Positions 12,070 to 37,172 of a stretch of DNA of 64,000 bases are shown here, in pieces. The notes below the pieces were generated by a model that did not search any database, was not told the DNA's origin, and saw only the letters and a list, made by a program, of their open reading frames with translations. Source of the DNA: Physcia stellaris. Taxonomy: Eukaryota; Ascomycota; Lecanoromycetes; Caliciales; Physciaceae. Where the stretch lies: NCBI GenBank assembly GCA_018902385.1, contig JABSSW010000005.1, positions 310,001 to 374,000 on the forward strand, given 5' to 3'. The first letter of the stretch is position 1. Every line of letters begins with the position of its first letter. The translations under genes and the position numbers were made by a program.

Positions 12070-15000
12070 ATGCCAACGTAAGCTCTTTCATCTCTCAATG
12101 GCATAGTGGTCCACTTAGCTGATCATTCAACAATTTAGGGACCTCTGGGTTGCCGCAGCGGAGAACCTGCGACAAAAGGATAAAGACTCTTTAAGAGAGC
12201 TGAATGTCACCACAACCCGCATTGAGGATGTCGCCAGAGCAGTCGAGGACAGGAAGAAGGAGTGCAAAGAAAGACAATGGGAGTGGAAAAGAAGTAAAGG
12301 CAAAGATGCTATCGTGCTTAGGGACGTCTTCTCCAAGATTTCAACATGGCTTCAGAAGCTAGTCGAGATCGGTGACGTGGCTGTGAGTTACGATCCTGGG
12401 CATGCGGCGCTGCCATGGGCTGGCATACGGTTTCTGTTGAAGGTATGCATATTCGGTAGCCTGGGAATGCCTACTGAGAGCCTCTAGGTGGGCATACAAG
12501 ATGTCCAACAGTATGCAGCTGTCACGGAAGGCGTGGAGAGAGTGATGAAGATTATCGTCCGCTTCCGCATCATCGAGAGGCTTGCCCGGAAAGCAAGCTA
12601 TGAGGCGTCAATGCGTCTGGAAGCGAACCTGATCGAGCTGTATACGTCTATATGGCGTTATTTGCTCAAGGCGTATCGCTATTTCGGCAGGAGTACGGCC
12701 AGTAGGTGATACCGTCACCAAACTTTCCAGATCGGATAAGCACCAAGTATCACGCTCAGCTAACCTCCAGTCTTTTAGTAAGAGCCTTGCGCAGCATGAC
12801 AACCTTCCTCGACAAGTTCCACGAAGTAGACGAAGCCATCAGAACACAAGAAGCAGAGGCTGATAAATGGTTCGAGACTATTGCTGCCGAGCGATCTGAC
12901 GACCTGGAAGGCGGCCTCGCTGCCCTTACACTGGAGGAAAGGGAGTCCCATAAGAAACTGAACACACTTCTGGACGATCTCTCTAGACCCATCAAGCGCA
13001 TGGAAGCAGAAATTGCAGACGTCCATGATTGGCTCTCAGACGAACAAAAGACCCAAATCCTGCAATGGTTCTCTCCTTTGCCATATCAGCAGTACCACGT
13101 GCAAGCGAGCACTGACGTACTTGCCGGCACTGGAAATTGGCTTCTGCGTGATGAGAGATTCAAGAAATGGGGTAGCTCGAGTTCCGCATCCATATTGTGG
13201 CTCCGAGGGCCTCCCGGATTTGGCAAGACAAAATTGGTGTAAGTACCCTTCGGACCATTCCAAACTCGATCTGTGATGGTACTAAAGTTTTAGATCTATT
13301 CTTTTAAGGGGTCTTCTAGGCGAAAGCGAACGAAACGAGAACCCGACCCCGTGTTACTTCTATTGTACTCGCAACACAGCCGAAACAGAACGCAGCAAAT
13401 CAGAAGCCATATTGCGGAGCTTGGTTAGACAAATGGCAACCCCAGGCACAACAAGTACGGGAACCATAGCTCCCATACCAGCACCCGCGCGTCAGATATA
13501 CGACCTGAGAAAAAAGGACGCTTTTGCTGCTGGCCCCCTGACACAATCAGAGTGTGTAAAATTGATGATTGAGCTTACTAGTCAGAGAACACTAACTACC
13601 ATCGTCATTGATGCCTTGGATGAGTGTGACCTATCATCCAGGGCTGATATACTGGAGTCCCTGAATCAAGTGGTTGAAGAGTCTGCGGGCCTGATCAAGA
13701 TACTGATCTCTAGCCGCAATGATAGAGCCATCACATGCCATCTGGAAGGATTTCCTAACATTACGATCAATGCGAATGACAACCTCACTGACATAGCTAG
13801 ATTCGTCGATCACGAGGTAGAGACGATGATCAAAAGTAAGAAGCTCTTATGGGGAAAAGTATCGGCAGAGCTGAGAAAGTTGATCAAAGAAACGTTGTGT
13901 GAGCGGGCGGATGGGATGTGAGTACTGCGCTTTCTCAATCCAAATGGCATAATTACGATGCTCTGCGCTTGATATGATCAGATGATAATTGCTCGGCCTC
14001 TTTCTTCATTTGAATTATCGCCCCACTCCTCTAAACGTACTGACATGAGTAACAGGTTCCGATGGGTCAGCCTATCTCTTCAGAACTTCCGCGGCTTGAC
14101 CGTCGAGCGAGCCGTTCGCAATCGTCTTGGAAAATTGCCGAAAGATCTCCAGAAATTATATCAAGAGACATATGATCACCAAGTCGATACTGGAGATGAA
14201 GATCAGATCTCAATCGCCAAAGATACATTTCGTCTTCTTCTTTGTCTTGAGAACACTTTGCAAACTGAGGAATTCCTCTCTGCTCTTGGTTCGTGCAATG
14301 AGGAAGAGGAGGTCTTGACTACAGACGACCTCCTCGAATTGTGCTTCAACTTCATCACCCATGACCAAGAGTCCGATTCTTTCCGGTTCGTGCATCTGTC
14401 GGTCAGAGAGTTCCTGGAGACCAAGGAAGGGTTTGAACGTGAAAGCTGTCACCGCACTGCAGCAATCTTCTGCCTACGATGCGTGTCAGAACCTGGTCTT
14501 GCATACCGACTCTTTCCGAATTATCCAATCAAACGATCAGTGGACATCGATGAAGCTGGAACTACAAGCACTGAGGAAGAAGACGAAACCGTAAATTTCG
14601 GTACCTTCACTGGGCAACCGAAGATAGTAATTAGCGAGGCGACGGATGAGGAGAGCACAGATCCCGAGAAAGCATATCAATTAGCAAGTAAAGATTTGAC
14701 GTCTTATGAGTATGCATGCATACTGTGGCCATACCATTTAAGTCTCAGTGGCTCTTACCGACTTTGCGAACCACTGAAGACCTTGACATTCAATTTCATG
14801 CTAGGAGACGAGCCCGACATTGCAAATTTCCATGAATGGTCCAACGTGATGTACGAGGATGGCTGGCGTCTAAGGGTGGGCGATCCAAAAGTTAAATCTT
14901 TGCCGACTCACGGTTCGAGAGGTCAACCTGTCGATTACGAACGCATGATTCACGATTCATCTCGCTGGACGTCGAAAGACTCCCGACCCTTGTCGCGTTT

Positions 15001-15838
15001 TCTTACTTCGGATTTCGCGCCTAAGACGGACCCTATCTTCGCATTGTGTGTTTGGGATTTCTCCGACATACTCCAAGCCCGCATAGACTTCGACCCCACG
15101 TCAATCGACCGTGAGTCAGACGTTCCACGACGCGATCCCAATTCTCTCGAAAAAGCCTGGTGGAGCGCCGCTGAACCTGCAAATCGTGTTTGTCCTCTTG
15201 ATCTAGCATGTCTGTACGTGAATTTCGACTGTGTGAAGATCCTCCTCGAGGCTGGAGCAAAAGCCACTAGCCATCTCGCACTCTCATTCGCCATCCGGAC
15301 ACAGCGCGCCGATATCGTACAACTACTGTTAGAGCATAAGGCACCGCTCGGCACACAAAGCGATATTGAAACGTGGAACCAGGAGATGGAGTGGCCAACA
15401 GGCTTCGGATCCAATCCATTGCATCAGACCGTTATTGTAGGCTCGCCGAAAATCCTCGATATGCTCTTACGACACGGAGCGGATCCTAATATTCGCATTG
15501 AAGGCATCTCGGCACTGGACTTGGCGAAGAGTATGAAGAAAATGGACATGGTGCGCCGGCTTGCAGACGCTGGTGCTGTTCCGGACAGCAATTTGACACT
15601 TCCGCAGGATGAACAATCAGGAAACGCTCATAACCACATCCTATTCGGCAACATCCTACAGCACCTGACAACCGAAGAGCGTCTACAGCTCTATTTTGGG
15701 CTGCAGCGCGGAGAGGATACGAAAAGTGGGCGCAGTGGACGCGATGTGAAGGCATTAATCTCAGACGACGCAGGCGGGCCTCTCTTTACGTATTCCAGGG
15801 ACCATGAATTGTTGCTTGTTGTTACGCAGCATCAATGA
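12070..15838 (+). CDS. NACHT-ankyrin STAND protein (NLR-like)
   Basis: Six exons: 12070-12077, 12139-12442, 12488-12701, 12779-13238, 13294-13917 and 14056-15838, about 1130 residues. The tiny first exon (MPT) is inferred because exon 2 needs two extra bases; the remaining joins are strongly supported by protein continuity. The N-terminal helical domain has the W-x-G-I-R-F-L-L block typical of fungal NACHT proteins. The NACHT NTPase carries the P-loop GPPGFGKT at about 319-326 and a Walker B stretch ending in D-A-L-D-E-C-D near 432-441, followed by the conserved M-F-R-W-V helix. At least three ankyrin repeats lie at about 910-1045. Such proteins are signal-transducing ATPases linked to non-self recognition and cell death in fungi. 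Role here is inferred; the ankyrins have diverged and are few. It sits at the edge of an island with HET genes. Confidence 0.9.
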
Positions 15839-16584
15839 GCGCCCGTCACGCAACCTTTGAGCGGTCTAAATTTGAGTCAAGCAGGGAAACCCTCAACTAT
15901 ATTCCGTTGGCGCTCTGAGACAATGTAACCAGTAGGCCATTCCACGCAGCCGATGGAGGATCATATGTGCACGAAAACTACGTCAACACTTTTCTGTAGC
16001 CTAAAGATCATGGAGGCCACGTTCTCAGAAAGCGGGAAGAACGGATGATACTCTCACGCTTTCCTGTGTCTGGGGCAGACAGCCAGTCTGTCAGCCTGTC
16101 GAAATTATGTCATGGCCTGATCCTAGATAATGCGGTTGTTTGGGATGCATCCCGACAGACTTCCGATTACCCGACTCGGGACGAAGTCAGAGGATGGTGT
16201 TGCCTTCATATCACATTCATATGCTTTGTACCAAAGACGGGTTGACGTATTGTCATGTTGGGTCGAGGGGTGTATAAGCAGAATTCCATCACACCAGGTC
16301 ACGGGATAGTACTTTACCCGAAGTGGAAAATGTTGACGAGGTTACACAAAGTGAGGGGTTGCTTGCATCTGTTGGCTAGACAAGTGCTGCTTGCGTTGTT
16401 CCTCGAGGTGTATCTACACCAAATCCTCGGGACAAGAGATCACTGCTTTGCCCTCTTGGGTAAATTGCTGCCCTTTACCCTTAGTATTCTGGAGACCACT
16501 GGATCAGAATATCAACAAGCAGGTGACCTGAATTATTACTGGTAGCAGCAGAAGCATACCACTCAGCGATACCGTCCTTTCACT
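15839..16584. other. Intergenic with a MITE copy
   Basis: Holds the MITE at 16108-16306 and the upstream region of the HET gene. The 66-codon frame at 16045-16245 is element sequence, not a gene: its reading recurs only because the element recurs. Confidence 0.6.
16108..16306 (+). mobile_element. MITE, family 1, copy C
   Basis: A 199-bp element with ends TGTCATGGCCTGAT and ACCAGGTCACGGGA, flanked on both sides by TA (16106-16107 and 16307-16308). The interior shares ATTACCCGACTYGGGACGAA, TTCATATGCTTTGT and AAANACGGG with copies near 49.9 and 50.3 kb. No coding capacity, so it is non-autonomous; TA duplication suggests a Tc1/mariner-type transposase. Confidence 0.8.
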
Positions 16585-18390
16585 ATGCGGCTCATCAATA
16601 CATCAACCCTGAAATTAGAGGAGTTCACTAGGGAAATTCCGATGTACGCCATACTTTCGCATACCTGGGGTGATGAAGAGGTCTCTTTTCAACTCTTCCA
16701 AACGCCACAGCGTCAGTCAAGAGCTGGCTTCATCAAAATCAGACGATTCTGCGCCCTGGCTAGAAGCCGGAAACTTAAATACGCATGGGTCGATACTTGT
16801 TGCATTGATAAGTCGAGTAGCGCTGAGCTTTCTGAGGCTATCAATTCGATGTATTCATGGTACAAAAAATCAAAATGCTGCATGGTATACTTGAGTGATA
16901 TGCACAGATGTTCGGCTATAGTCGACGAACATGAGAGGTCCGAAGCTGAATACAAAGCCTTTCAAGCTTGCAAGTGGTTTACTAGGGGATGGTGCCTGCA
17001 AGAGCTCCTAGCACCATCCACAGTCATCTTCTATGACCAATACTGGGAAGAGATCGGTGATAAAAGGTCAATGAGTATGTTGATAAGTCGAGCGAGTGGT
17101 ATAAAGGATAGACAGCTTCAAGATCCGACATCGGCAAGCATTAGCATTGCTCAAAAGATGTCCTGGGCGGCGCGCCGGCAAACGACACGGATCGAGGATG
17201 AGGCCTATTGCCTTTTGGGTATCTTCAACGTGAATATGCCGTTATTATATGGAGAAGGCTCGAACGCATTTATGAGGCTTCAGCAAGAAATCATAAAATC
17301 GTCGAAGGACGAATCAATATTTGCCTGGACTAATGAGGACCTTTGGTCCAGCGGCTTGCTTGCCAAACAGCCACGCGACTTCGCGGGCTCAGGTGATGTA
17401 ATTCAGAACAATTATATAAGTCTAAGTCGAGCTCCTTACTCAATGACGAACCAGGGTTTGCAAATCGAATTGGTAGCTCTACAAAGTGGGGACCAGAATG
17501 CTCGACAATTCGAAGGTCCGCTTCGGTGTACTCGGGAAAGAACAGGCAAGGAAACTTTGATTACGTTGCAACTAACAATGCTCGGTGAGCTCGAGGAGAA
17601 GAAAGCTGCAAGAAGAGTGATGAGAACTGGGCTATCAGCCAACCGGCTGAGGCACGTGACAGATTTGCGGAATTCCACTAGTGCACGGCTATGCTACGTG
17701 GATGATATCACATGTATCAAATCGCTAGGCAGCACAGAAACTGACCTTGTATGGTCGCATCTAGACGTGTCTTTGAGTCTAGGACTGCGACTTAGGGGGG
17801 TTTCGATAGAAAAGGTGTCCCATATGTGCCAGCTCCATCCAATCGATACAGAAAGAATTGGATTCTATATTTTCGAAGTCAATGAAGAAATTTTCAAGGT
17901 GTCCGCTCACTATCTTGACAATGCGTTACTCTACATATGTTGGCCTCCGGAAAATTCCTCCCCTACCTCGATGAACATTTACTGTCGAAATCGAAATCCA
18001 AGAAAGAAGTCTAGAACGCAACGGGAACGTTCAATTAATCAAGAGAACTTTAATCAAGAGAACTCAACAATCATGACTGTCGACCTCGGTAACTCATTGA
18101 AGACTTGGTCGGGTTCAGAAGGCGTGTCCGGAAGCTTCTTCCTTTTCATCGCCCTCAACTCAACTACGACTCCGTTTCAGACGAAAACGATCATTGACAT
18201 CGAAATGAAATGTATATCATTCTGGGACCCTTGGTATGAGCAAATTGTGCTCAGTGATCCAAGAGGCAACTATGCGATTTATCGGAGAAAAGAAGGGCTC
18301 TTCCGGGAGCCATCTTTTAGTTCAGGCGATGGTACCGAGATATATGGTATTCCCGTGCGATCTCTACAGAGTCAAGGCTTCATTGAATAA
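16585..18390 (+). CDS. HET-domain protein (HET-E/HNWD-type N-terminus)
   Basis: A single exon of 601 residues. The N-terminus holds the full HET signature in order: Y-A-I-L-S-H-T-W-G near residue 21, K-Y-A-W-V-D-T-C-C-I-D-K near 65, and W-F-T-R-G-W-C-L-Q-E-L-L-A-P near 131. A further conserved block (AYCLLGIFNVNMPLLYGEG) follows, as usual in this subclass. The C-terminal half has no domain I recognise and lacks NACHT or WD repeats, so this is a stand-alone HET protein. HET domains trigger incompatibility-type cell death on non-self recognition; they have a TIR-like fold and may act as NAD-consuming enzymes. The first ATG after a stop at about 16540 was used. Function is inferred from the family; the local NACHT and second HET genes support an allorecognition role. 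Confidence 0.93.
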   Translation: MRLINTSTLKLEEFTREIPMYAILSHTWGDEEVSFQLFQTPQRQSRAGFIKIRRFCALARSRKLKYAWVDTCCIDKSSSAELSEAINSMYSWYKKSKCCMVYLSDMHRCSAIVDEHERSEAEYKAFQACKWFTRGWCLQELLAPSTVIFYDQYWEEIGDKRSMSMLISRASGIKDRQLQDPTSASISIAQKMSWAARRQTTRIEDEAYCLLGIFNVNMPLLYGEGSNAFMRLQQEIIKSSKDESIFAWTNEDLWSSGLLAKQPRDFAGSGDVIQNNYISLSRAPYSMTNQGLQIELVALQSGDQNARQFEGPLRCTRERTGKETLITLQLTMLGELEEKKAARRVMRTGLSANRLRHVTDLRNSTSARLCYVDDITCIKSLGSTETDLVWSHLDVSLSLGLRLRGVSIEKVSHMCQLHPIDTERIGFYIFEVNEEIFKVSAHYLDNALLYICWPPENSSPTSMNIYCRNRNPRKKSRTQRERSINQENFNQENSTIMTVDLGNSLKTWSGSEGVSGSFFLFIALNSTTTPFQTKTIIDIEMKCISFWDPWYEQIVLSDPRGNYAIYRRKEGLFREPSFSSGDGTEIYGIPVRSLQSQGFIE

Positions 18391-19965
18391 GATATCCAAT
18401 CGTGCTAGAGACCAAAGTCCAAACTTCTCGCTCAGAGCTGAGCATCAACGGCTCTTGTATCATGCAACCGCAGTGAAATAGGTCTGCTCATCTTGACTTG
18501 TAGAAAGTTATTCCAAAAAATCTTTGCAAAGAGTACCTGCCGTGGAATGTGGTGATCTTAGCACTGCTGCGCTTCGAGAAATCTCATTACGAGGTTTGGA
18601 AACATCGACAGAGTAGAATGCGATCGCAAAGCATGAATGTAAAATAGTCTCCATCCATTACAGCTTGTTGCGAGTCAAATATCTTTCAATGCGCATTGTG
18701 GAGCCCTCGAGAGCTGCGCGGTGACCTCAACGAGCATAGCAGGAAAGGCGAGTCGTGTCGAATCGCAAGCTCTCTCTGTTCTAATATTGAACGATGCGAG
18801 TTGATTGTTTGTGTCTTTTGATTATCACTGCTTACGATGAATAGAAAGATAAGTAATCTATGATCCTGATCAATCTTGGTGGATGGGATGTCTACTTGCT
18901 GCTCGCATAAATTGTTTCAGAGTTTTCAAATATCTTGTTTCTGAAATTGTCAAAGCTTTCTTTTCAAGCTCAGAGAATTCGAATATCAAAGCGCACAGCA
19001 ATTCTATTTCAGTCTTCAAACTCTCAAAAATCTTAGAATTCTCAGAATTTTCAAAATTTTCATTTTCAGAACTTTCAATCTCATCAATCTCAAAACTCTT
19101 CGAGCTCTTCGAGTTACCAGGATCTCGAAAGTATCAAAGCTCCAAACCTCAAAGTTCCCAATCTCGAAGTTTTCAATTCAAAGCGTCAGAGCATCGAATT
19201 TTAGAGTTTCAAACGTCAAGTTCTCAATCACAGAGCTGCCAGCGCTCCCAGCTCTCTCAGACTCAACGTTTCCAATTCCGAAGCTCTCAAAGCTCCAAAG
19301 CTCCAAAGCACCCAAACAGCTCCAGAGCAACGCCGGGACTCCAGAGCAGCCAGAGCAGGCATCTAGAGCTCCGGAGCAGCGCCAGAGCTTCGGAGCAGCT
19401 CCAGAACTTCGGCTTCGAAGTTTGGAAGTCTCTCTTTGAATGTTTCGTTTTGCATGTTCTAAAAATCTGAAGCTTGATTCTGTATGCTTCGCTTCGTTCC
19501 GTTCCGCTCTTAAGACTCGACGCTGAAGTTTCGCCTTATAGATTCAGTGATTGGGAGCTCCGAAAGTCAGAGCTCTAAAATTCTGAGGTTGAGAACTCTG
19601 ATATTGAGAGCTCTGGATTGGCGACTTTGAAGTCAAGAGCTTAGACAGAATTCAAAATCGTTTGAGTTCACTCTCAGTAAACTCATGTTGAGAATTTCTA
19701 TTTCTATCGCTTCACACGCTCATACGAGAACATGTGAATTGTTCCAGCTGCAGCTCACCCAATGCGGAAGATGCACGTATCCGCCCTCGACCTATGAGAG
19801 CGAGATATTCATATGAATCGTGCGGGGTCGAGAGGTTACACGAGCCTCAGAAGTAAAGGGCTGATATTTACCTTCTCCTCCCATCACCTCGAGCTCCATT
19901 TGCGAGACCCAAGTATTCATTGATAAACAACCCAAAACACTTGCTAAGCGTTAGGGAAAGGCATC
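18391..19965. other. Intergenic with low-complexity AGAGCTC/TCAAAG tract
   Basis: Between the HET gene and the tetraspanin gene. The central part is the degenerate repeat listed separately; the last ~150 bp are the tetraspanin promoter. The 195-codon frame 18883-19470 is a Ser/Gln/Phe-rich translation of the repeat and is not called a gene. Confidence 0.5.
18955..19640. repeat. Degenerate CTCAAAGCTC / GAGCTCTGA tract
   Basis: About 550 bases on the + strand are built from diverged TCAAA(G)(A/C)TC and AGAGCTCC words; after about 19540 the words appear in the opposite sense (GAGCTC, GAGAACTCTGA). Units are too degenerate to give one consensus. No function is visible. Confidence 0.6.
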
Positions 19966-21022
19966 ATGTCTAGAAGCCGTGCCTCGACTAGGCTGGTGAC
20001 TGCAGTTGTCGTGCTCGTACGCTTTCACTTCATCCCACAGAATAGAAGTCGAGTAAGCTGACAGCAAACAGGTCCTCCTAACACTCACCATCGTAGCAGC
20101 GTAAGCCCCCCTTCTCCCCATCCCCACCTCCTACCCCATACTCCAAAAGCTGAAGCCAAACCCAGCATCGCCCTCCACCAAATCCAGTCCCTCTCCCTCC
20201 CAATCCCCAAAACAACCGGCATAGCCACCCTCCTCCTCCCCCTCCTCACAGGCCTCACCCTCTACCCCTCCTCCCCCACCCCGGCCTCCAAAAAAGGCTT
20301 CCAGCCATACCTCACCCTCACCATCTTCACCCTGCTCACAATCTACGAAACCGTCCTCATCACCCTCTCCCTCACCTCCATGCTCCCCCCCAGCAGCCTA
20401 ACTTGCCCCCTCGAGCAGCGCTGGCAGGGTTTATATTCCGCCAAGAACGCGGAAAGCATCAAGAGGATCCAGGATCGGCATGATTGCTGTGGATTGCACA
20501 GTGTGCGGGATAGAGCGTGGCCGTTCCCGGCGAAGAGGAGGTTGGTGACGGCGTGTGCGAGTACGTTTAAGAGAGAGAGGAGCTGTTTCGGGCTTTGGAG
20601 GGGGAATGAGCAGGTTACGGCGAGGTTGTTGCTGGTTGTTGCTGCGGGGACGATTTTGATTAAGGTGAGAGGCGTCGTCGTTATCTTACTTTGGGATTGA
20701 GGAAAGGCTCACCGTTGAATAAATATAGATGTCGCTACTCCTTTTCGTCCGGCCGCGGACACCGTGGACGGAACAGTATCGTCGAAATACAACTGCCGAA
20801 GATGAGGCTGATGATTCGCCCTCGGCGAGCCGTGGACAGCGGAGGATAGAGCCTCAGTATCATGATGAGGAAGCGGAGGAGGTCGTGGATCGGGCTCATG
20901 ATACTGAGAATGATAGAACTATCACGCCGGGGAATGACCGTGTGGAGGATCCTGCGATGCAGCCATCGAGCTTCCAGGGTCATAGTGAGAAGAGGGAGAG
21001 AGAGCGGAATGAGTGGGCTTGA
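19966..21022 (+). CDS. Tetraspanin, fungal TSP3-like
   Basis: Four exons: 19966-20016, 20072-20100, 20166-20664 and 20729-21022, giving 290 residues. The acceptor at 20165 (CCCAG) was chosen because earlier AGs open a stop or the wrong frame. Four hydrophobic segments are visible: one across exons 1-2, one beginning TTGIATLLLP, one beginning YLTLTIFTLL, and one spanning exons 3-4. The large loop between the third and fourth holds the D-C-C-G-L motif with its flanking RIQD and AWPFP blocks, plus further cysteines, as in ascomycete TSP3 proteins. The C-terminal 80 residues are acidic and arginine-rich and presumably cytoplasmic. Tetraspanins organise membrane microdomains; the precise role of TSP3 is not known to me. 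The rich CCTC codon run in exon 3 reflects strong C-ending codon bias, unlike the neighbouring HET genes. Confidence 0.85.
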
Positions 21023-22498
21023 TGGGAGGACGAGTTGCCTGAAGTGGGGATCTATATTTACAGGGGGTACCGGAGGTGGAGGTGTGAGGATTTACATTGA
21101 AGTTCAAGTCCGGATGTATTCTTTAGAGATTGGCATAATTATGGAACAAATGGTAGATACCCATAAATTGCAATCAATATCGGAGAACTCCCGAGCTGTG
21201 TCCAATTTGGATGCAGATCCATTCCCTTTAATTTCTGGATCATTACCAGACGGCACTAGCCCGACCGTGAAACCTTGGATTGGGTTTCGGATCTTGTCGA
21301 CTCTCAGTAACAAAAAAAAGTCCTAAAGAATCCCGGAGCGCTTCTGGAGTGGTGTTGAAAAGTATTCGCATGCTGTCTAGCACCAGCCATCGTTTCATAC
21401 CAAGGGTCAAATCACCTCCTCGGAGGACACTTGACCATATATAGCCAACTTGGACATCTTGAGGGTTATTTCCGGTATGCTTCTCGAATAAAAGACAAGA
21501 CCTTGATCGTAGATGCTAGATGTCGCACGAGGGAGTTGAGCGGTACTTTCCTGCTTTCCCTACTTGTTTCATGGGGCGGCGTCCCACTGACCGTGATAGC
21601 CGTTGATAATGTACCGAATGTTGCTAGGAATCGATATCCGGGGATAGCAGTGATACTGATATTAGCGCAAAGTCTATGAGATCGAAAGTCGAAGCTGTGA
21701 GTCTCTTCCGGGCGATCTTCTGGGTGATCGACTAGGTGGTGGCTGGATTGAGTGATTAAATTTTGAGTCTTTGTACTTGAGGATGATGTTTGCCATTAGC
21801 AACGAGCTTCGCATGATATCGGTCTCTCTGGGGAACATTACCTGTCCAAATTAGACACGGCTATTGAAGTGTTGAACTACTGTAAGCCGCTAGAAAATAG
21901 TGTACACTGTCTATAAAGCTTTGAAACTTGTGTGCTATATCAGTATAAGGTTTAATAATAATATAAGTATGAGAGCTATACGAGAATTAGTGAGTGCTGA
22001 GTAGGTCTTGAGATCTAAAATTCAAATGGACGTGTCAGTGTCCTAAGAGCGCCAAGACGGGGTGCCAGTCCCGCCTAGATGAGGGCTAGGAAGCTCGGAA
22101 TCTACGGAAAATGCAGAGGTTGGTGGTGAGAAACACGAACGAGGCTGAGAGGGTTCGACCAATCAATCACCTGGCGTCGACCGCTTTGCGAATGCTTGGC
22201 GGTTGGCAATCGAGCTGCCGATCAGTTCAGCTGTTCAGTTTCAACAATTAGCGACGGCGACCAACCCCACAGAAACGATTATTATTTTCTCAACGCTTCT
22301 TAGAATCTCCATCTAGCCGTATAAAAATTACAATAGCCCTCAAGGACGAAGTTCAAGTTGCGTCCTGTTGACAGGGCTTGAGTCTCCGCCGTGAGCCAGC
22401 AGTTCCTCCTTATTATCTCTCTTCCTGATCTATCATCAAGCGTTAGCTACTTAGTAGCTCCAGAATTTTTAGCTGTGGCTGCGTCTGCGTCTAGAGGA
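21023..22498. other. Intergenic, nothing recognised
   Basis: No coding, RNA or repeat feature was supported. Sequence near 21930-22010 is AT-rich. The frame extending upstream from the next HET gene to 22391 starts with GTG and is not used. Confidence 0.5.
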
Positions 22499-24817
22499 AT
22501 GGATAAGATTAGTTGCAAATCCGAGTACAAGCCATATCTGAAATATGATCCACTACCACAAGGCCATGTCCGACTCTTAAGGTTTCAGGGGAGTCTGATT
22601 TCAGATTACGAGGATGAGATTGAAATCTCGCTAATCACAGCGCCGCTCTCTAATTGCCCTCCTTACATCACCTTATCCTACACCTGGGAGTGCCCTGAGC
22701 CCGTTCAAGATCCCAAGACCATCATTTTTACAAAGGTAGCCCGATGCTTTCCTATCAAGTGTGGTGGGAAATTGCTTCTCGGCACTCACAACCTCCGCAA
22801 TGCTCTACGCGCTTTGCGCAAAGTCGAGAACAGCCAGCAATCAGCCACAGCTGACAGTGCCATTACGCCAATGAGGCTAGGTTGCGCATCGTTCGATCAG
22901 AATCAGTTATATTGGATTGACGCTATATGTATTAACCAGGAAGATATCCAAGAGCGATCCCGGCAAGTTTCGCTGATGAGTCTGATCTACAGTCAAGCGC
23001 AATGCACTGTTGTCTGGCTTGGAGAGCGTGATCGTTACACGGAGTCATCTATGCGGGTTTTACTAAAAGTCATGGGTGATCATGTCGCAGATGATAGCAT
23101 TGTCGAGCTTGGAGACACTAGACCGACGAAAACTAAATTCGAGGGGATCTATAGGCTAAGTGATGATGAAATTATAGCTCTCGGCATGCTGTTCGCGCGT
23201 AAATGGTTTTCCAGAACATGGGTTGTTCAAGAGGTCGTTCTATCCCGGACTGTAATGACATTGTGGGGTACAGTCTATTTTTCTTTCGATATCCTCACCA
23301 AGGTTGCTACTGTCATGTCTCACACGCGTTCATCGTTGCGTTTCATTAGCCGCTTCTCAACAATTGGAAGTTCGAGTCGCTTGGAGAGCGCTGTGCAGGA
23401 GAAGTTCTGGGAAATGTCATCAGCTCTGCCCATCTTGCAAACGATCGAGAGTAGTCGAGTTGACTTGCAGAATGACATGAAACCTAGCTTCATGAAAGTT
23501 GTAAGGATGTGTCGAGCGTCTAAATCGTCAGACCTAAGGGACAAGATCTATGGAATCCTTGGTATAGCTGCAGAGCTTGAAAACAGCGGCGAAGGGGACA
23601 GCACACCAGACTACAATCTCACTATAGCAGAAGTCTACATGAGGGCGACAACAGTGGTTATAAGATCGAGATCGGATCTCGCTTGCCTCACACTTACCGG
23701 CGATGAGTCTTACAAGAATGTCAAGGGTCTCACCTCTTGGTGTCCAGATTATAGTACGCATGCGATATTTCTTAGAGAATGCGATGATGTCACAAGAAAG
23801 TGGCAGCTAGGTTTATCCTGGTCAAATGCACTGTCTCCCAAGATCGTTGGAACTTCCAACCTCAGGGTAGACGGCTCCCTATTCGACGTCGTTGCGGAAA
23901 TCTCGTGCTTAACCGAGAACCCCACAGATCGCTCCATACATCATGGTCTGAGTACTGTGTTCGAATTAGCCACACGTTTGGAAGATGAACAAGGACCTAC
24001 TTCTGTTAAGAGGTAAGTTTTCCAAGGCTTATGTGAATACTCGGGAATCTGACGTTTCAGGTATGGTCATGGGCCGTTTGAGACGTTATGGAGAACCCTT
24101 ATTTGTGACCAGTGTTACACACGGGCTCCAGCGCCAGCGGCTACAGCCTTTTGTATTCCCGCATTTATTCCATGGCTATTGAGTTGTACTATGCCAAACA
24201 AAACTGGACCTGACGAATACGGCCGCGTTCAATCCATCGATATTCTTCCAACGAAGGAGTCTATACTTGAAGAATATCAAAAATTGGAGTCGATTACGAA
24301 CCAGCTCAAGCGAGGGGAACACCGTAAGATTCTCGGCTTGCCCAACTTTAGCCGTATACGTGAATTGGTCATCGCACATCAATTCAGCAAAAGCTGTTCC
24401 TATTCCGATGACATGGAAAACATCCTCGTGAAAGTCGTTGAACTAGAACTTTCTATATTATACGACGAGCACCGTGCTGGAAGCTCGGCGGTGGATCTAC
24501 TGAGCTTAGGTGGGAGCAGATCAACTCCGAGCTTCAATGAGCATGTCGACCTATGGCAGCAGAACTTCATAGACAATACCACCGATGGGCGCTTGGGAAG
24601 GATCTATTTCAGGACAAGGAATACTTTAGGCACCGGACAGCCATCAGTCCGAGCTAGAGACGAGATATGGTTTCTATATGGCGCTACTGCACCCATTATA
24701 CTCAGACCTTTACCCAACGGTAATTACCGATTTATGGGCGAAGCTTATGTGCATGGTCTTATGTACGGGGATGCAGGTGGCCAATGTGAGTCACATAAGA
24801 TTATTAATATTGAATGA
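22499..24817 (+). CDS. HET-domain protein with C-terminal extension
   Basis: Two exons, 22499-24012 and 24061-24817, 756 residues; the 48-bp intron (GTAAGT...TTTCAG) falls just before the conserved Y-G-H-G-P-F-E-T-L-W-R-T-L block. HET motifs in order: Y-I-T-L-S-Y-T-W-E, L-Y-W-I-D-A-I-C-I-N-Q-E-D-I-Q-E-R, and W-F-S-R-T-W-V-V-Q-E-V-V. The subclass is the large 'HET plus GDP/FWRTL' type and differs from the HET gene at 16.6 kb, so the two are not recent duplicates. The first ATG in the frame (22499) gives the usual start, roughly 65 residues ahead of the first HET motif. Likely role: incompatibility or stress-triggered cell death; inferred from family only. Confidence 0.9.
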
Positions 24818-35747: not shown

Positions 35748-36512
35748 GACAAGCAGATGGAAGTGTTTGCGAGCAGGTGCGCTAAAGTCTCTGCAGAGCA
35801 ATTAAGGAAGCAAAAACGGGAGGTCGATCACAAGTCCGTGTGAGTATTATTGAAGTCGACGAAAATAATTGAGAGATGCAAAATATTCGAACTAGGTAGG
35901 ACTGTTAGCGTTGGACGCGTAAACATCGCGTGACGTCAATGGAACGGATGATGATCCGGTGCTGCATAGGGCATCGGAAACGATCCCGGCAAAGGAAAAG
36001 CTCCCGGAAAATGCCCTAGAAACGCTGTGCCTGCTCAGGGGCCTGAGTAGCTACCGTAGAATTGGTGTTCTACAACCGAGCATATATGGTTGCAATCCAA
36101 TTTGAATTTAAATCCTGCTCATCCAAGACACGAAGAAGACAGAATCTTGAATAGCTTGCAGCGATACTGAAGGCTTGAAATAGACAGGAATTAACGTTGG
36201 AAAAGGCCCAATGAAAGCTACAGTACACAACAAGTACGAGTATTTGGAATTGTGGTGAAAGATCGTTCCCATTTTCAAGGAAAGCCTCAATAGAGAGCAG
36301 AAATGACAAACACACCAGATCGCCGTAATCGAGAGGCAGCGACGTTTCGCAGCCTTACAGCGAATGGAGACGCGTGGACACAAGCCAGGAAGGCGTCTCA
36401 GTCCCGAGATGATAAAGACCAAAGTGACAAGATACGAGTTGATGTAGAAAGACTGGATGCAGACTTGATCCAGTCGCCAAATGACCGCCTCTCAATCGTA
36501 TACGGAGTACCA
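35748..36512. other. Intergenic, nothing recognised
   Basis: Promoter side of the oxygenase pseudogene and the 3' side of the Cys-array gene. Short frames only. Confidence 0.5.
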
Positions 36513-36798
36513 TCAGTACTTGTGTACTCCGTTCAGGTTCTTCCCACCCTTCACGCCGGAGCAGTCATTGCAGCTCACACAGCCTTCGCAATCCTTGCAG
36601 TTGTTGCAGAAAGTACAGGACGTGCAATCGGTGCCTATAGTAACGATGCGTGAATCAGGCCTGATCTCCTGGGTAATAAGATTCCGCAAAGGCGCACGTA
36701 CATGCGTTGCAAGAAGTGCAATTCTTGCAACCCTGGCAGTTATTGCAATTCTCATTGCCGTCCTCATCTTTGTTCGGAGTAATGGTGATTTGAGTCAT
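36513..36798 (-). CDS. 72-residue protein with 14 cysteines at every third position
   Basis: Two minus-strand exons, 36798-36702 and 36634-36513. The 67-bp intron has donor GTACGT and acceptor ACTATAG. The start region is MTQITITPNKDEDGNEN; then cysteines stand at residues 18, 21, 24 and so on through 57 without a break, and the protein ends GVKGGKNLNGVHKY. The array is encoded half in exon 1 and half in exon 2, which are in different frames; only this splice joins them and it keeps the three-residue register exactly. That is strong evidence that the gene is real. Intervening residues are mostly N, D, T, S, G, K and E. No signal peptide or membrane segment. I do not recognise the family. Possible roles are metal binding (metallothionein-like) or a disulphide-bonded solenoid; both are inference. 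Confidence 0.75.
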
Positions 36799-37172
36799 GC
36801 TGTAAGCAATTGGAAGGGTGTTGGGATTGAGCAGGTTCGGGAGGAAGATGACACAAGAGAGGGTTCATGTTCTTTTTGGCGACCGGAAAGCTTCCAACCC
36901 TGACCCTAGATATCTTGGCGACGATGACATCGTTCGATCATTTGCTTGAAGATCTAAGGTACCATGTTCTGGTGTACCAGCCTCAATTAAGGTCGTATCT
37001 CCAGAAGAGCTCTCAGCATGATTCTCAGACCTAGGCTTTCGCCTGCACTCATATCAAGAAACCCAAAACCCTCTCATCCGCACCACATTTCTTGCCAATC
37101 GCTGGACTAGCACGACGTTCATCATTTCAACATCTTCCCAGCAGACAAGCGCAACGCTCACGGTTCTCGACA
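36799..37172. other. Divergent promoter; possible targeting-peptide exon of the PrpD gene
   Basis: Lies between the Cys-array gene (-) and the PrpD gene (+). An ATG at 37018 opens MILRPRLSPALISRN, an Arg-rich presequence-like peptide, in a frame different from the PrpD frame. The PrpD frame itself is open upstream of 37173 (from about 37092) with Arg/Ser-rich sequence but without an ATG. Confidence 0.4.

Follow-up and report, generated by a model that had tools for sequence, protein, structure and literature searches.

A short spliced gene on contig JABSSW010000005.1 of Physcia stellaris is best read, from its sequence, as encoding a genuine small protein whose cysteines form a regular, one-sided ladder, perhaps as a solenoid that advances in steps of three residues. 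It lies on the minus strand of a window of 64,000 nt, the whole stretch of DNA that was analysed (positions 310001-374000 of the contig, in a 44-Mb genome of 147 contigs). Exon 1 (36702..36798) carries the ATG, residues 1-32 and the first base of the Cys33 codon, and a 67-nt intron (36635..36701) separates it from exon 2 (36513..36634), which encodes the remainder of Cys33 to Tyr72 and ends in a TGA stop (36513-36515). The joined exons translate into 72 aa with 14 Cys, placed at 18, 21 and so on to 57 at a constant step of 3. The (C-x-x)14 array (residues 18-59; 36555..36747, with the intron inside it) is preceded by the flank GNEN (36748..36759) and followed by the tail VKGGKNLNGVHKY (36516..36554), in which V60, G63, L66 and V69 carry on the step of three. 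The coordinates, splice, frame and cysteine register given by the original prediction were all reproduced from the sequence.

The intron reads GTACGT...CTGATTCACGC...CTATAG and divides the Cys33 codon between T and GC. Its GTACGT start, a branch-like CTGAT site about 20 nt from the 3' end and its TAG end are all near the intron consensus of filamentous fungi. That a single GT-AG splice joins the two halves in register is borne out by a scan of 206 G[TC]-AG junctions with introns of 30-200 nt, in which only the proposed junction gives 14 Cys; among the 15 best junctions, those with 9-13 Cys all come from GC donors, and the next GT donors reach 8. On the 5' side of the ATG, the same frame stays open to 36864 with no further ATG, over a stretch that looks pyrimidine-rich by eye (36799..36864). 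No candidate for an upstream exon was found in the 560 nt scanned (GT[AG]NG donors, introns of 45-200 nt), and nothing in the junctions tried therefore speaks for a secreted form; nor was a secretion signal seen, by eye, in the 72-residue protein itself. The plus strand holds a frame that is open for 144 codons (36469-36900), known as an open frame alone and with nothing found in its favour. Upstream of the array gene, at 13286-24013 of the window, lie NPHP3, ankyrin and two HET-domain reading frames, with no link seen. The HET domains and the shortness of the intron suggest a filamentous ascomycete.

Fresh DNA repetition does not account for the array. In a six-frame scan of the 64-kb window, runs of at least 4 Cys at a step of 3 were found only within the two exons, where they count 6 and 8 Cys, and the only repeat that TRF detects is a 9-mer in 4 copies, within exon 1 (score 37, 62% matches). 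The Cys codons of the array are 12 TGC and 2 TGT, and synonymous codons are mixed elsewhere (AAT/AAC, GAT/GAC, ACT/ACC/ACG, TCT/TCC/AGC). The main argument for selection on the protein had been that the register is kept across the junction; this argument is more modest than claimed, because by our own estimate (frame times Cys phase) the register would be kept over one junction alone in about 1 case in 9. Stronger evidence comes from the two long perfect runs, the mixed synonymous codons and the near absence of DNA repetition. At the level of the sequence, selection acting on the protein is nonetheless supported, by the perfect register and diverse codons as well as by a second similar gene and a shared tail.

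The second gene lies in the same genome, which by its sequence holds at least one more such gene. Protein searches of the genome found one further array locus, on contig C14 (609386-610231), where 386 codons of open frame contain two arrays, the first of 17 perfect triplets and the second of 7, and the second carries on past one Cys-to-Ser change. Since both arrays sit in one open frame, the intron position of the 72-residue gene is absent from this sister gene. Judged by eye, the N terminus of its product has many Arg and few acids, and near the C terminus basic residues come after a hydrophobic stretch; Pfam gives no match for the protein. The sister gene stands between a DUF7924 frame and a mitochondrial carrier frame (C14:604800-614700), separated from the former by an unmatched frame of 225 codons. 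Relatives of its arrays were not found in phages (E 0.01), viral_contigs or plasmids (E 0.1), in searches where low-complexity filtering may hide some. A weak match on contig C68 (E 0.77) lacks three Cys triplets in a row. As these protein searches score best candidates only, read exon by exon, further members could exist. The phage profile PHROG 15341, run against the same genome, returned 7 rows, 2 of them on C14 and the others simple repeats or stop-containing stretches; it missed the two exons of the 72-residue gene, so that other intron-split array genes could be missed too, and protein searches would be the better means of finding them. Near position 176424 of contig C33, six Cys triplets also follow one another in a stretch interrupted by stops.

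The step of three extends beyond the last cysteine. Without gaps, the tails read DCSG-V-KG-G-KN-L-NG-V in the 72-residue protein, DCDG-L-TN-A-CG-V-KG-V after the first C14 array and DCAN-L-YN-A-RG-L-QG-V after the second, so that [VL]xx[GA]xx[LV]xxV occupies +3, +6, +9 and +12 after the last Cys in 3 of 3 fungal arrays. This pattern arises in 0.06-0.1% of shuffles of each array's own tail (0.0006 for the 72-residue protein), frequencies that overstate the case because the pattern was picked after seeing the three tails. In residue similarity, the tail of the 72-residue protein is equalled by 1.6% and 0.9% of shuffles when compared with the two C14 tails, and its N flank shows no significant likeness to the two C14 N flanks (shuffle 0.21 and 0.09). 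The GNEN flank resembles a phage flank, ENGNENCYNC (L107), as the best of 54 and with a shuffle frequency of 0.002 that is uncorrected for the 54. Within the triplets of the two C14 arrays, D, N or G stands at the third slot in 27 of 27 cases and at the second in 5 of 27; the corresponding figures for the short array, 9/14 and 4/14, amount to a trend only (p 0.13).

No named family had been recognised for the 72-residue protein. This holds in Pfam and NCBIfam, which have no model for it, for the sister protein or for three phage proteins, but its residues 17-63 are matched (E 2.1e-6), in an alignment that is largely Cys-driven, by the profile of PHROG 15341, a phage family of unknown function and the only PHROG to match. 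A tblastn search of 50,697 phage records (E limit 1) matched 22, of which 17 are from Campylobacter; the best match is to Vibrio phage 1.238 (E 2e-4), in a protein annotated as an insect antifreeze protein (IPR016133). Relatives of the short protein were confirmed neither in viral_contigs (10 stretches) nor in genome_contigs (14 stretches), where low-complexity filtering may hide some, and among plasmids it matched 3 records (E 0.05 to 0.1). On the Campylobacter fetus plasmid pCfviMP1 (L039:1501-1653) there is a weak array match (E 0.1) where the listed annotation shows no gene. Searched with the Vibrio phage protein, genome_contigs gave 112 stretches and from them 3 loci, two of which look like low-complexity frames.

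Arrays of this type are abundant among phages. A protein of Flavobacterium phage FL-1 retrieved 113 stretches from IMG/VR, from which 80 loci were kept (L042-L121); L079, with its array in a seemingly different frame, was left out by eye, and the other 79 reduce to 75 distinct arrays, 54 of them complete. Cys is missing at 7 of 2526 triplet positions in the 75 arrays. The complete arrays have 14-64 triplets, mostly C-S-[DGR], and their last Cys is followed by L, I or V at +3 in 35/54, by A at +6 in 14/54 and by V at +9 in 9/54. At least three kinds of N-terminal modules can be told apart by eye. An alignment of 38 of the 80 loci, picked for having both ends and a shared C-terminal domain, is matched throughout (38/38) by PHROG 15341 and PHROG 31265, both of unknown function, and Pfam finds one weak unrelated match only among these members. 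PHROG 15341 proteins thus resemble the fungal one in their C-x-x arrays, often followed in step by an aliphatic residue, and some enter the array through N-x-N-C or L-x-x-L-x-x-C. They differ in having 14-64 triplets in the complete arrays and N- and C-terminal domains of their own, neither of which the fungal protein has; in the 38 members picked the C-terminal domain is PHROG 31265, and other phage arrays have different C termini.

Some of these phage loci deserve mention in their own right. In FL-1 (L010:2342-3058), the deposited CDS (2469-2813) is an Ala/Pro-rich repeat, and an alternative frame over the same DNA encodes the Cys-array protein; the N-terminal module of this protein is found in other phages as well. 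Between portal-protein and ligase genes, Campylobacter phage CP21 (L011:468-1905) has two adjacent array genes, whose runs comprise 43 and 54 Cys triplets; Cys is sometimes swapped in step for Leu or Ser. The related phages CP220 and CPt10 encode 11 and 12 radical SAM proteins, according to passages of PMC2853527. The string 'cystein' has no occurrence in the main text of PMC2853527 or PMC3322345, and a literature search found Cys-Xaa-Xaa repeats as such described only in Bacillus bacteriocin precursors (PMC2674419).

The fungal and phage sequences appear to share a modest likeness beyond the spacing of their cysteines. When Cys was held fixed and the remainder shuffled, the score of the short protein against the 38-member phage profile was reached by 1 of 300 shuffles, and that of each C14 array by 0 of 300. 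Taken apart, the short protein's tail is reached by 10/500 shuffles, its N flank by 14/500, and its array filling by 182/500 (74/500 for shuffles within slots). For the C14 arrays the corresponding pairs out of 500 are 4 and 1 for the filling, 402 and 278 within slots, 205 and 30 for the tails, and 38 and 139 for the N flanks. A beetle antifreeze protein also exceeds its Cys-fixed shuffles (6/500 reach it); because it passes in the same way, the test cannot separate descent from common geometry, and the likeness may reflect either homology or a shared rule.

A known fold with a three-residue step is that of the beetle antifreeze protein, a right-handed beta-helix. According to passages of PMC8038014, positions 2, 5, 8 and 11 of each 12 residues face inward, which is exactly a step of three, and the core is built of C2-C8 disulphides. 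At E up to 0.01, the phage profile finds only this protein in the PDB (1EZG, 2.2e-4, where a composition bias of 39.8 bits compares with a score of 23.5). It is also the best PDB match of the sister protein, aligned in step over 55 residues with no gaps (E 0.029). The 72-residue protein has its best PDB matches in zinc-binding CXXC domains, those found in TET and CpG-binding proteins (E 0.061-0.45, not significant), and 1EZG comes fifth of five (E 8.2, not significant). AlphaFold2 was run on two phage array proteins: L016, taken alone, gave no confident fold (mean pLDDT 36.9), and in L113 (14 triplets), supplied with 38 sequences, residues 43-74, most of the array, fell below 50 between flanking domains mostly at about 88-98. 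The lengths of the 54 complete phage arrays show no four-triplet quantum (14, 15, 17 and 8 arrays leave remainders of 0, 1, 2 and 3). Nor does a 12-residue period stand out in phage arrays (z 2.8 and 0.8, with larger values at 6 and 27); they show broad like-to-like runs (x1 z 2.4-4.2, lags of 2-7 triplets). A 12-residue period is not significant in the short array (0.13). It is clear in the first C14 array (p 0.0005), where it was rejected as proof of a 12-residue coil: a 36-bp tandem repeat of the DNA accounts for it, and the unit of the second array is 27 bp. A solenoid gains from the aliphatic step after the array, the slot rule of the sister arrays and the place of 1EZG as best match of the phage profile and the sister protein, and it loses from the unfolded AlphaFold2 models and the non-significant match of the short protein to 1EZG. 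Because the AlphaFold2, array-length and 12-residue findings stand against it, the solenoid is a lead and not a result.

Among the competing explanations, a flexible metallothionein-like protein would have no fold without metal and would bind Cu, Zn or Cd in clusters, its even spacing being incidental or maintained by 9-bp slippage. Such a protein, which we consider possible if on the unlikely side, would fit the 14 Cys in 72 residues and the lack of any signal-peptide exon found, features that also mark fungal metallothioneins as small, Cys-rich and without a signal peptide. It would also fit the top, if non-significant, PDB matches to zinc-binding CXXC domains (E 0.061) and the unfolded phage arrays, as AlphaFold2 often leaves apo metallothioneins unfolded. 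However, a flexible binder does not need an exact step of three, the gene retains almost no 9-bp repeat, and nothing in this explanation accounts for the aliphatic step that follows the array. The protein has only C-x-x-C, without any C-x-C or C-C, whereas the characterised mushroom metallothioneins have C-x-C and uneven spacing, with the motif C-x4-C-x-C-x2,3-C-x-C-x4-C-x-C (PMC12508003). The protein might instead be an oxidised solenoid, locked by disulphides and at work in an oxidising compartment or the extracellular space, in the manner of the hyperactive antifreeze proteins of beetles (TmAFP, 1EZG, PF02420). The matches to 1EZG and the disulphide core of that protein argue for this, as do the Arg-rich N terminus and C-terminal hydrophobic stretch of the sister protein, which read by eye as organellar. 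The two would share Cys in the core, small Cys-rich repeats and, by analogy, the inward geometry. Against it, beetle antifreeze proteins are secreted and follow TCTxSxNCxxAx, with two Cys at four inner positions, but the fungal protein has Cys at every third place, lacks the Thr ranks (TCT) and shows neither a visible secretion signal nor an upstream exon among the junctions tried. The 12-residue repeat of PF02420 has no match in it or, up to E 1, anywhere else in the genome, and we regard this explanation as improbable.

Two further alternatives carry little weight. One is a modified-peptide precursor of the sort proposed for the Bacillus Cys-Xaa-Xaa bacteriocins; its precedent lies in the heterocycloanthracin-type precursors (Haft 2009), which are likewise short with Cys mostly at every third residue; these are bacterial and accompanied by genes for a cyclodehydratase, a dehydrogenase and a scaffold protein (PMC2674419). 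YcaO (PF02624), the one modifying enzyme searched for, has 0 matches in the Physcia genome, although the same search was positive in 5 of 14 control genomes. We consider a precursor very unlikely. That there is no gene at all, the array being a product of chance or a decayed copy, is the least probable explanation of those considered; it can appeal to a gene known here from the DNA of one fungal genome, but has to account for the perfect runs of 6 and 8, the consensus-like intron that links them and the second similar gene. The 2[4Fe-4S] ferredoxins carry the motif CxxCxxCxxxCP; the 72-residue protein has no CxxxCP and no Pfam match.

Our tentative preference, held with less than even confidence, is for a spliced gene whose product, if expressed, would be a small and probably cytosolic solenoid of 72 residues, with antifreeze-like geometry and an all-Cys core that holds thiols or, most likely, soft metals. 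The chain would repeat one three-residue conformation and so place all 14 Cys on one inner side, and Val, Gly, Leu and Val, in the same step, would close the last coil. The geometry would be that of the beetle antifreeze proteins, with every third residue inward and a core made entirely of Cys. With no signal peptide, the protein would be surrounded by reduced thiols, so that the ladder would present 14 thiolates along a single side. In the reducing cytosol these would be held as thiols, Cu(I) or Zn would be the soft metal ions most likely bound by the ladder, and disulphides would form on oxidation.

Cys-triplet arrays have now turned up in numerous phage genomes and at two places in a single fungus. 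A more speculative and rather unlikely extension is that they make up a repeat fold of their own, a solenoid with a three-residue step and an all-Cys core that is common to phages and fungi, perhaps through gene transfer, and serves as a rod for thiols or metals; the fungal gene would be its minimal, intron-split member. At 72 residues, the fungal protein lies within reach of chemical synthesis, NMR and metal titration, which opens the question to direct experiment. Should the three-residue step prove to be a fold, it would be a very simple solenoid with a core of cysteines.
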